A stretch of 64,000 nt of DNA. Origin: Alviniconcha marisindica. Lineage: Eukaryota; Mollusca; Gastropoda; Provannidae. The notes under the pieces are model-generated. The model searched no databases. It saw only the letters and a list, made by a program, of their open reading frames with translations, and was not told where the DNA came from. Positions 12,215 to 46,800 of this stretch are shown here, one piece after another. The translations under genes were made by a program, and so were the position numbers. Positions within the stretch are counted from its first letter, which is position 1. Each line of letters opens with the position of its first letter. The stretch spans positions 95,001 to 159,000 of the forward strand of contig JABMCL010003092.1 in the NCBI GenBank assembly GCA_018857735.1, read 5' to 3'.

Positions 12215-12960
12215 AGGAAATGTAATGCAGACATGTAGTGTTCTGCCAGTGTCGTGGTGTCAAAGCAATGCAGACAGTGTTCAGCACGTGTCGTGATGTG
12301 AAAGTAATGCGGACAGGCGGTGATCTGCACGTGTCGTGATGTGAAAGTAATGCGGACCGGCGGTGATCTGCACGTGTCGTGATGTGAAAGTAATGCGGAC
12401 CGGCGGTGATCTGCACGTGTCGTGATGTGAAAGTAATGCGGACCGGCGGTGATCTGCACGTGTCGTGGTGTGAAAGTAATGCGGACCGGCGGTGATCTGC
12501 ACGTGTCGTGATGTGAAAGTAATGCGGACCGGCGGTGATCTGCACGTGTCGTGATGTGAAAGTAATGCGGACCGGCGGTGATCTGCACGTGTCGTGATGT
12601 GAAAGTAATGCGGACCGGTGGTGATCTGCACGTGTCGTGGTGTGAAGGTAAGGTGTTGATCTACACGTGTCGTGGTGTGAAGGTAAGGCGGTGATCTACA
12701 CGTGTCGTGGTGTGAAGGTAAGGCGGTGATCTACACGTGTCGTGGTGTGAAGGTAAGGCGGTGATCTACACATGTCGTGATGTGAAGGTAAGGCGTTGAT
12801 CTACACGTGTCGTGGTGTGAAGGTAGGCGTTGATCTACACGTGTCGTGGTGTGAAGGTAGGCGTTGATCTACACATGTCGTGATGTGAAGGTAAGGCGTT
12901 GATCTACACGTGTCGTGGTGTGAAGGTAGGCGTTGATCTACACGTCCCGTGGTGTGAACG
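12215..12960 (-). repeat. minisatellite derived from the P450 C-terminal codons
   Basis: About 18 tandem units of 34–43 bp. On the minus strand each reads like the end of P450 exon 11: CGCATTACTTTCACATCACG in the units against CGCATCACGTTCACACCACG in the exon. The genuine stop (12938–12940) lies in the exon-proximal copy. Proximal 34–35 bp units keep the TAG, whereas distal 43-bp units have CAG, leaving all three minus frames open there. It would be transcribed as 3' UTR. Confidence 0.88.
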
Positions 12961-13051
12961 TGATGCGGACTGGTCGGTCAGGTGAGATGACGGTGACGAG
13001 GACTGGCTCCACATCTTCGTAGTGATAGGACAGGTGGAATCTCTGCACCAG
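12938..13051 (-). CDS. P450 exon 11 (C-terminus and stop)
   Basis: Encodes [16 protein letters not shown] and ends [10 protein letters not shown] then TAG. The acceptor is GTGTGTGCAG. The length and hydrophobic β-strand pattern fit the C-terminal sheet of mitochondrial P450s. Its last ~30 bp are the source or sister of the 12215–12960 array. Confidence 0.9.
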   Translation of the reverse strand: MVQRFHLSYHYEDVEPVLVTVISPDRPVRITFTPRDV

Positions 13052-43800: not shown

Positions 43801-46800
43801 AGCCAGTAATGCAGGGAGCTTGGAAGCTGACATTGTTGATGGGTGATGCCTAATTGATGAGATACCACCCTACAATTTTAATTTCCTGTGTGGAAAGTAC
43901 ATTTCTCTGGAGTCTTATCCTACCCTACTGTTTACATTTTCTGTGCAGAAAGTATGTTTGCTCTAGTCTTATGCTACCCTACTATTTTCATTGTCTGTGC
44001 AGAAAATACAATTCCTCTAATCTTATGCTACCCTACTATTTACATTTTCTGTGCAGAAAGTACACTTCCTCTTATACTACCATATTTACACTGTGCAGAA
44101 AGTACATTTATTCTTCAATAATTACACAAGTAACAAAGAATGTTTTTTAGCTGTTGTTGACATATTTGAAAGTACATGTGAACAGAGCATTATGTTGTTG
44201 AAGATGGAGGGGGGGGGGGGGGGGTGTGAGAACATATCAAGTGTTCCCACACTTGTCATTATTGCAATAATAAAGCATCTCCAAAAATGTGTGTGTGGGG
44301 GGGGGGGGGGGGAGAGAAAAAAGTGGTTGTTTTGCAGTGTATATTCAAAACATTCATAACTCTGTATTACTTTTGTTTCCAAATTATTTCAGAAAATGGA
44401 TTGCAAACAAGAAAATGACTGTACTCCACTTGAGTTTGTTTGATCACCTTTCCACTGTACCTGATCATCTGGATACTGTAGGAGGTTGGAGAGGAACTCT
44501 GCAGGAAACAGCCACGTTGAGTTGTCAGCAGAGCACATGTCACCTTCTGGACCTTCTCTCCATGAGCACATCTTTAAACAGGCACACACACACACACACA
44601 CACACACACACACACACACACACACACACACACACACCACACAACACAACCATAAACATCTTTAGGACTAATCACATGTAGAAGAAAATAAAACTGTTTC
44701 AATGTAAGAAAACTAAAACAAACACCCAAACAGGATTCTTTTAATACATAAAACTTCAACAGTGATGCAAATGCTTGTGAAAATGAGTTTGAAGTTTTGA
44801 ATACGACCTGTCTAAACGTAATGGGCAACCACAGCAAAATACCCTCCACCCATTCCATAAGCCTCCAGCAGGTAACTAACTACCTGTGTGTTGTGTCCAT
44901 AGGGCTGGAAGCTGATTGGTTGATGCCGGTTGTCAGTCAGCACAAGCCCCACCTCCTGCAGGGCAGAGTTGAGTGCAGACGGGCTGGGGCGTGTCAGCAA
45001 GAGCTCTGTCTGACTGATAGATGATGTCCCCTCCACTGAAACAGACCAACTTGTAAAATGCTGGGAACAACTTTATACATTTGCAGATCATATCAAACTT
45101 AAATGCACAAAGGTGAAATGTGAGATTCTGCCAGTATGAAATAAAAACATGAGCTTTGTGCTTAAACATACTGCCTGCAGAAACAACATTACCTATGTGC
45201 ATCAAATATTAACTGTTGCCATAATCAGCAGCTTTTAAAAACCACAAATAAACACATGGAGAAGGAAAATCACTCGTTTAATCACTAATTGAACTGCTTT
45301 TCCTCCTGTTCATTTTTTTGTTGTAGTAGAAGTAGTAATTGGATTTTAATGTCCTGTAAACCACAATGGGTCACTTCAGGACAATCAAACTTCGCCATAA
45401 GCAACTGCACACTTCAAAACTCTTTCCATATATAAACCCTTTCTCAAGTCTATCCACAAAACCAATCCCTACACAAACAGAAAACAAAAAATACATACAA
45501 AAACACCCAATACAATTTTTTGAAGAGTTAGTCCTTTCAATATTACCCCTGTTGAAAAAGCACACAAGGCTAGCACATGCAGGTCGCATCAACCAGTCTA
45601 ATTTATCATTACAAATTCAAAGAAAAATGTAAAATAGGAATGGACAGAAACAATAACAAAATTAAAAATGTTATATAAACGCATAATGGCAAATACAGTG
45701 CCATCTGGCAGCAAGCTGCACATACCCACCTACCAACTATCATCTCCAAGCTGCTCAACAAGAGCCATATGAAAAAGCCTAACTCTTAACGTAAAATGTT
45801 GGAAATTCTTTTTTGGAAAAAAAAAAGGCTGGAGAATGGACCATTAGCAGAAAAATGACAAGATGTGAGCAAGAGGATTAGACCAAAAAAAAAAAAAAAA
45901 AGAAGAAGAAAGAAGATAGGAAAGGGGAATCAAATGACAGCACTGAGATTCCAGACAGAGAGTGAAAACCAGACATTGCAAGAGTAGATCCACTTATGTA
46001 GATCTCTAAGCAGGGCTGTAAAAAGTGAATGCATCACTTCTGCAGATCTCTAAGCATGGCTGTAAAAAGTGTATGCACCATTTATGCATTTCTGTAAGCA
46101 GGGCTGTAAAAAGTGAGCACACCATTTATGTATCTCTGTAAGCAGGGCTGTAAAGAGTGTATGCACCAATACTGTACCTCTCTGAAAAAGTGCAAGGAAG
46201 GGCAGATGATGCAGACAGCCTGGAGACATGTAATGGGCCACCACTGCAAAACAGTCAAATGTTTCAAAGAATAATAAAATTATAGCTGTATACATACATA
46301 ACTAAGTGATTTACAGGGAAAATGCAAAAAAGTGGGCCAGTAACATGACTCCTTTCTATGAAAAGCAGATAATTATGTTCTATTTGTGCCTGGTAGACAC
46401 ACTTAACTTACAACAAAATAATGTCAATGTAAAATAATGTCAATGTTGAGTAAAAGCAACAACAAAGCATGACAAACAGCTGGAGACTTTCAGTGGTTTA
46501 TCTTTGGTTGTGAATGGTTATAAATGGTTATGAATGTGCAAGGATCTCTGGTGCCAACAGCAAAAAGGAATACAGCATCTTTCAGCACTGATCATGTCTG
46601 TGGGTGTACTCAATGGGCAAAGATCTGGTACCAGTTGCAAACAAGAGGTCAGAACTCATCAATTCAGTGTAGTTCATGGCCATAATGTGCTGGCTGTGCA
46701 ACAATCCCTAGACCAATCACAAACAAGAGTGCAGTAATGCTAATAAACGAAATAGCAAATTAAACTTATCTGAAAAATGGTGCAAGTGTTCCACCAATAA

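Follow-up and report, generated by a model that had tools for sequence, protein, structure and literature searches.

Short local duplications that include the edge of an exon recur in two neighbouring genes of the gastropod Alviniconcha marisindica, one encoding a CYP10-like cytochrome P450 and the other a thioredoxin-domain protein. Both genes lie on the minus strand of a 64,000-nucleotide stretch of contig JABMCL010003092.1 (assembly GCA_018857735.1, positions 95,001 to 159,000), referred to here as the window. Across the spans of these two genes and of a third gene with RING and zinc-ribbon matches, 16 local-duplication families were found, and nine of them include an exon edge: exons 3, 4, 6, 8, 9 and 11 of the P450 gene and exons 3, 10 and 17 of the thioredoxin gene. 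The arrays are probably minisatellites of the type named 'mirages' in amphioxus, born of short tandem duplications across exon edges.

Duplicated exon edges in the P450 and thioredoxin genes

Repeats were detected with Tandem Repeats Finder (TRF) and by masked self-comparison, and the arrays were read unit by unit. The edge families occupy the following positions of the window.

P450 gene:
12184..12978, minus strand, stop-codon end of exon 11 (exon 13051-12938): 34/35-bp and then 43-bp units copying the last codons and the stop region
14717..15314, minus strand, exon 9 donor: 63-bp units (about 31 exonic and 32 intronic bp), 4 copies
16240..16516, minus strand, exon 8 acceptor: 45-bp units, 7 copies including the real one
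17956..18555, minus strand, exon 6 donor: 51-bp units with a 31-bp sub-unit, 10 full copies including the real one
21445..21507, minus strand, real exon 4 acceptor with the first 50 bp of the exon, from the gene model and self-comparison
21901..21963, minus strand, spaced copy of the exon 4 acceptor, intronic, 456 bp upstream: 84% over 63 bp, E 2e-10
22274..22612, minus strand, exon 3 acceptor with the first 65 bp of the exon: three copies with GAT microsatellites between them

Thioredoxin gene:
38997..39533, minus strand, exon 17 donor: 15 copies of a 36-bp unit, one of them 32 bp long, all carrying CAG|GT(A/G)GGT
45990..46183, minus strand, exon 10 donor: 44-bp units, 81% over 62 bp, E 3e-8
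53935..54112, minus strand, exon 3 acceptor with the first 22 bp of the exon, duplicated 132 bp apart (53935-53980 and 54067-54112): 85% over 46 bp, E 1e-5

The P450 gene model has 11 coding exons from 24330 to 12938, encodes 544 amino acids and has GT-AG borders at every intron, and the thioredoxin gene model has 22 coding exons from 55858 to 31618, encodes 904 amino acids and includes one GC-AG intron; both are free of internal stops. The P450 protein matches Pfam p450 and mitochondrial P450 structures, and is 79% identical, at 100% query coverage, to CYP10-like proteins of Nucella, Littorina and Babylonia. The thioredoxin-domain protein matches Pfam thioredoxin and shares 54% identity with a Nucella protein across 97%. 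These closest homologues point to a caenogastropod-like mollusc as the host. As side observations on these models, exon 8 of the thioredoxin gene has an apparent GC donor at position 47508 (ATG|GCAAGT), and the donors of P450 exons 2 (22886) and 5 (19844) share an unusual GTTCGT start.

An earlier reading of the same DNA, the original prediction, had named nine repeat places in these genes; all were recovered by TRF, self-comparison and unit reading, with identical exon numbers. Its list lacked the duplicated acceptor of thioredoxin exon 3, a 36-bp duplication past exon 4 of the same gene and the five families that touch no edge. Its view that the repeats reflect a recurring process and not a single element was also supported, in that unit sequences are unrelated and both donors and acceptors are affected. 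The unit lengths of 34–63 bp that it gave describe the arrays and not P450 exon 3, which is a spaced triplication with copies 130-141 bp apart around GAT microsatellites.

Architecture of the repeats and their splice-site copies

Eight of the edge families are splice-junction families that hold exon sequence, a splice site and intron sequence (P450 exons 3, 4, 6, 8 and 9; thioredoxin exons 3, 10 and 17), with donors and acceptors equally affected at four each. Head-to-tail tandem copies make up five of the eight (P450 exons 6, 8 and 9; thioredoxin exons 10 and 17), while spaced copies make up the other three (P450 exons 3 and 4; thioredoxin exon 3). In the arrays that were read, the real exon copy stands at the exon end and the spares are intronic, downstream of donors and upstream of acceptors; the spares of exon 11, where the self-match includes as many as 41 exonic bp, are found in the 3′ flank. 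The exonic share of the units is widely spread, from 6 to 65 bp, and the splice site never coincides with a unit end, as far as units can be judged by eye.

The GT or AG is kept in 25 of the 36 decoy copies that were scored, the exon 10 units standing outside this scoring. By family, intact decoys number 14 of 14 at exon 17, 5 of 6 at exon 8, 2 of 3 at exon 9 and 1 of 9 at exon 6, and, among the spaced copies, 2 of 2 at P450 exon 3, 1 of 1 at P450 exon 4 and 0 of 1 at thioredoxin exon 3. In the inner 51-bp copies of exon 6 the donor has been lost through replacement of ACGGTGAGTG by GTGATGAGTG, and these copies end in CTTTTCCTCTTAG. Of the 1746 intronic GTs of the thioredoxin gene, 12 score at least 10.3 and 16 at least 9.6; the exon 17 array supplies 11 and 14 of these, respectively. 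Read-through from exon 17 stays open for about nine units and would add VGHSLVTMVITQ repeats in frame, after which the 32-bp unit breaks the frame.

Homogenised interiors were found in some arrays. Interior copies of exon 6 are 0.99 identical, and the first and last copies 0.85 and 0.88; in the array of thioredoxin intron 12 the interior stands at 0.86 and the ends at 0.70 and 0.54, so that both ends have diverged in these two. One end has diverged in the 43-bp block of exon 11 (interior 0.99, first and last 0.95 and 0.79) and in the array of intron 20 (interior 0.94, first and last 0.96 and 0.86). A SINE-like insert with ATGGTGTGGG repeats on its flanks divides the four copies of exon 9 two and two, and the array is therefore probably older than the insert.

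The spaced families are less regular. At P450 exon 3 the real copy (22274-22341) is matched at 76% and 93% by extras at 22415-22486 and 22545-22612; AG is kept in all three, and the masked match reaches only 3 intronic bp, plus the GAT repeat. As the copies are bounded by GAT/GGT-like sequence in both exon and intron, slippage is suggested. At thioredoxin exon 3, the adjoining 33 bp are repeated too. The exon 10 case is weak, with just 6 exonic bp, and its TRF edge falls at 46168, 9 bp into the intron.

Homologues were compared at eight repeated joints, and no extra residues were found: for the P450, five gastropod proteins at the joints after exons 2, 3, 6, 7 and 9; for the thioredoxin gene, two or three homologous proteins at the joints after exons 2, 10 and 17, the Littorina protein ending before exon 17. 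The Nucella protein has one residue fewer near the exon 2 joint. The relation to intron gain or boundary shift that had been proposed for these repeats is not borne out by these homologues, and the window requires no new intron.

Microhomology at unit ends is short and without general rule: by eye, about 3 bp at exon 9 and 1 bp each at exons 17 and 6, with CCTGCT nearby on both sides at exon 6. Unit lengths are divisible by three in four tandem junction arrays (36, 45, 51 and 63), as would suit tolerance of decoy use. Selection for keeping the frame was considered and rejected: the use of decoys meets stops in exons 6 and 9 and, by eye, in exon 8, and the exon 10 unit is 44 bp, so the divisibility was treated as chance. 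Splicing intermediates were likewise considered as a template and are unlikely, because unit ends, as read by eye, fall off the splice sites and exonic shares vary.

Excess of families at exon edges

The family list and unit lengths were chosen by hand. A looser self-comparison of the gene spans, with limits of E 0.5 and 1200 bp distance, yielded 4 raw hits in the RING gene, 33 in the P450 gene and 39 in the thioredoxin gene, and 0 hits at E up to 0.5 in Markov-shuffled gene spans (10 shuffles per gene). Besides the nine edge families, two families without exon sequence start 3 bp (exon 20) and 11 bp (exon 4) past donors of the thioredoxin gene, and five touch no edge, namely those in thioredoxin introns 4, 12 and 21 and two in the RING/zinc-ribbon gene (0.3-3.2 kb). 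In the P450 span, the sole intron-only local match among the matches listed, near-duplicates aside, is 23094/23243 (22 bp, E 0.47), and TRF adds an intron-only 14-bp doublet at 23878-23906.

Left out of the 16 were microsatellites, low-complexity rows and repeats beyond the gene spans; five intron-only doublets of 10-21 bp (23878, 35551, 46415, 46505 and 48545), all more than 120 bp from exon edges; the dispersed-element-like pairs 16845/18984, 49818/50032 and 50478/51636; and the pairs 11702/13193, whose partner lies beyond the gene, and 23094/23243. The match 54029/54128 was merged into thioredoxin exon 3, 32451/32967 into intron 21, and three weaker matches in intron 1 of the RING gene into one family, which brings an earlier set of 15 to 16.

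Whole-array overlap with exons was dropped as a statistic: arrays are long and many would touch an exon by chance, and one unit per family was therefore used. In the null, this unit was placed at random on the gene spans, from which microsatellites and extra copies had been removed, and wholly exonic placements were barred. Under this plain null 1.77 of 16 families are expected at an edge and 9 were observed (P 1.1e-5). With dispersed repeats masked, P was 2.3e-5; with units matched for GC content, the expectation rose to 3.1 and P to 5e-4. By gene, the P450 has six of six families at an edge (P 2.7e-6 plain, 3e-4 GC-matched), the thioredoxin gene three of eight (P 0.03 plain, 0.06 GC-matched), which is marginal, and the RING gene none of two.

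The result was then varied. When P450 exon 3 and thioredoxin exons 3 and 10, as the three weakest, were scored as non-edge, P was 0.005 plain and 0.06 GC-matched. Doubling the family chance together with GC matching gave P 0.08, and tripling it gave P 0.04 plain and 0.56 GC-matched. For tandem arrays only, in the 15-family set, five of ten lie at an edge (P 0.0014), or four of ten with exon 10 uncounted (P 0.012). Restoring the five small doublets gave 9 of 21 against 1.86 expected (P 2e-5 plain, 7e-4 GC-matched), and with the three weakest cases as non-edge in this larger set P was 0.007 plain and 0.066 GC-matched.

GC content is 0.53 in exons and 0.40 in introns, and units above 0.40 make up eight of the nine edge families and four of the seven others. 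Since the exon content of edge units contributes to their high GC, GC matching may correct too strongly. The edge test is post hoc, since the locus was picked for its striking look and the family list is hand-made. The original prediction had held that anchoring at junctions exceeds chance: this stands for the locus under the plain null, and is weaker under GC matching and marginal in the thioredoxin gene. In conclusion, an edge excess in the P450 gene is credible; a genome-wide excess is unproven.

Origin of the repeats

In the proposed course of events, a tandem duplication of about 35-140 bp, produced by slippage or by repair of a staggered break, would happen to cross an exon edge. The exon-proximal copy would retain the original splice site and presumably remain the one in use; splicing and protein would thereby be preserved, and the extra copy would turn intronic and be carried neutrally. 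A duplicated donor would place its spares downstream and a duplicated acceptor would place them upstream. From two copies on, slippage or unequal exchange could expand and homogenise the array while the outer copies drift. Wholly exonic duplications would be purged by selection, so that exon-derived copies would persist only at edges. This origin is favoured by the place of the real copy at the exon end of each array read, with spares on the intron side in eight cases and in the 3′ flank for exon 11, by stop-free gene models, by homologues that lack additional residues at the joints compared, by the 25 of 36 decoys with intact GT or AG, by homogenised interiors in some arrays, by unit ends that (by eye) avoid the splice site, by the edge excess and by the likeness to amphioxus mirages.

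Several observations weigh against this course of events. Uniform birth of duplications fails to predict the edge excess. The end copies of exon 17 have not diverged, the first and the last each being 0.98 identical to the interior copies, against 0.96 among the latter; the exon 8 copies have all diverged similarly (0.74-0.76), and exon 10 and thioredoxin exon 3 are weak cases at 81% and 85%. GC-rich exon ends and the post hoc choice of the locus may account for part of the edge excess.

That chance and hindsight made the excess is possible, though rather doubtful; this explanation, by which minisatellites are common, exons dense and the window picked as striking, denies only the excess and is compatible with a mirage origin. 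The marginal result for the thioredoxin gene, the GC-matched tests without the three weakest cases or with doubled family chance, the GC difference between exons and introns and the hand-made list speak for it, but six of six families in the P450 gene lie at an edge, intron-only local matches are nearly absent from its span among the matches listed, significance survives the five added doublets, and GC matching may have corrected too far. Alternatively, a mutational process aimed at splice junctions would seed duplications, for example through breakage or faulty replication at the boundary while the gene is transcribed and spliced. Such a process is unlikely here: it would suit the edge excess, the involvement of both donors and acceptors and the two intron-only families that begin 3 and 11 bp past donors, yet unit ends, as read by eye, lie away from splice sites with exonic shares from 6 to 65 bp, the stop-codon end of exon 11 is affected though it is no splice junction, and one gene supplies most of the excess.

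Function of the arrays, for example as decoys that tune splicing or as an isoform ladder at exon 17 with added 12-residue repeats, is very improbable. A strong donor is kept in every exon 17 decoy, the top-scoring intronic GTs of that gene fall almost wholly in this array, and its read-through is long, all of which such a function would explain; against this, the 32-bp unit breaks the frame, read-through in exons 6, 9 and 10 ends at a stop, and GT is lost in eight of nine exon 6 decoys. Repeats are difficult to assemble, and copies might have been made by long-read misassembly, but copies differ, unit lengths vary and the exon 9 array contains a SINE-like insert with its flanking repeats, so that an artefact is hardly believable. 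A bolder proposal is improbable: that this snail lineage has a mutational process favouring exon edges and genes rich in intact decoy sites, with the 15 strong donors of exon 17 letting splicing add whole 12-residue repeats, so that boundary shift and the gain of introns could be studied in it live.

Relation to known systems

Repeats across exon-intron boundaries were described in amphioxus as 'mirages', in Adh3 and in the globins BflGb6 and BflGb9, at both 5' and 3' boundaries and with units of 10-160 bp; in the passages available, regular splicing is seemingly undisturbed, AG/GT is present on many but not all copies, array ends escape homogenisation, the mechanism and origin are called unclear, and intron gain from mirages is proposed (PMC3087553). 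A passage of another source adds PGBD5 and cites troponin C (PMC3902484). The snail repeats share with them, as far as these passages go, boundary-spanning units, unit lengths in that range, both boundary types, partial retention of AG/GT and an apparently undisturbed coding sequence; homogenised interiors with the ends excluded are shared only in some arrays. Unlike the amphioxus cases, those in the snail are from a mollusc; nine edge cases fall in two adjacent genes, 6 of 11 exons are affected in one of them, and at P450 exons 3 and 4 and thioredoxin exon 3 the copies stand apart instead of forming short head-to-tail arrays. The amphioxus work covered splicing and length instability, whereas the snail arrays are known from the sequence of one assembly. 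On most testable features the snail arrays fit amphioxus mirages.

Tandem duplications that carry splice signals are described, in the excerpts at hand, as the source of introns gained in ATP2A1 and potato RdRp (PMC4974935), and human segmental duplications are described, again in part of the source, as having internal minisatellites, some at the exon-intron boundary, that alter gene structure (PMC2812944). As these excerpts have it, duplication creates a new intron in ATP2A1 and potato RdRp, whereas in the snail existing introns grow; and the human internal repeats restructure the genes and may give rise to introns, whereas the predicted snail protein is unchanged. Zhuo et al. in 2007 reportedly described human introns derived from tandem arrays carrying splice sites, the arrays themselves being spliced as introns. 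Intronic repeats are known in other gastropods, and the passages seen describe none that spans a boundary (PMC6905558, PMC3862624); earthworm genes have, in the passages seen, intronic minisatellites and untranscribed exon duplications (PMC12783039). Among the papers listed from the open-licence literature, no boundary-spanning arrays were recognised in a mollusc in the titles, abstract openings and passages seen. The kind is already named in print, a point absent from the original prediction, and the snail locus would extend mirages to molluscs.

Other repeats and genes in the window

The families without exon sequence in the thioredoxin gene are as follows.

33581..34148, minus strand, array past the exon 20 donor: 46-bp units, no exonic bases
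53283..53352, minus strand, duplication past the exon 4 donor: 36 bp, starting 11 bp past the donor, without exonic bases
32438..32826, minus strand, non-edge array of intron 21: 50-bp units, 180 bp from exon 21
43862..44114, minus strand, non-edge array of intron 12: 54-bp units, 107 bp from exon 13
52.1-52.8 kb, non-edge family of intron 4

Exon 20 ends at 34152 and the array edge is at 34148, so that the array begins after 3 intron bases; its place just inside the donor agrees with the original prediction. The third gene lies on the plus strand at 260-3172 and has RING and zinc-ribbon matches; the reading covered its five exons inside the window.

A SINE-like element has several copies, at about 14.85-15.18 kb (within the exon 9 array), 24.7-25.4 kb (two in tandem upstream of the P450 gene) and 57.2-57.5 kb; its tRNA-like tail is an impression by eye. 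Open stretches on the minus strand at 50413-51129 and 51646-52014 show an apparent resemblance to the C-terminal part of the reverse transcriptase of non-LTR retrotransposons. An inverted repeat at 62224-62344 is near-perfect (98% over 121 bp) and is possibly a foldback element, and a second at 30173-30357 stands at 76%. Degenerate repeats with words such as TTCAAGGTCA occupy 27566-28376, between the P450 and thioredoxin genes.

Implications

With nine edge cases in two genes, this gastropod locus would carry mirages into another phylum. It provides a dense system for asking whether exon edges are duplication hot spots, how the spliceosome finds the correct site when many nearly identical ones are present, and if such arrays feed intron growth or gain. 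Boundary arrays of this kind are also a hazard for gene annotation.

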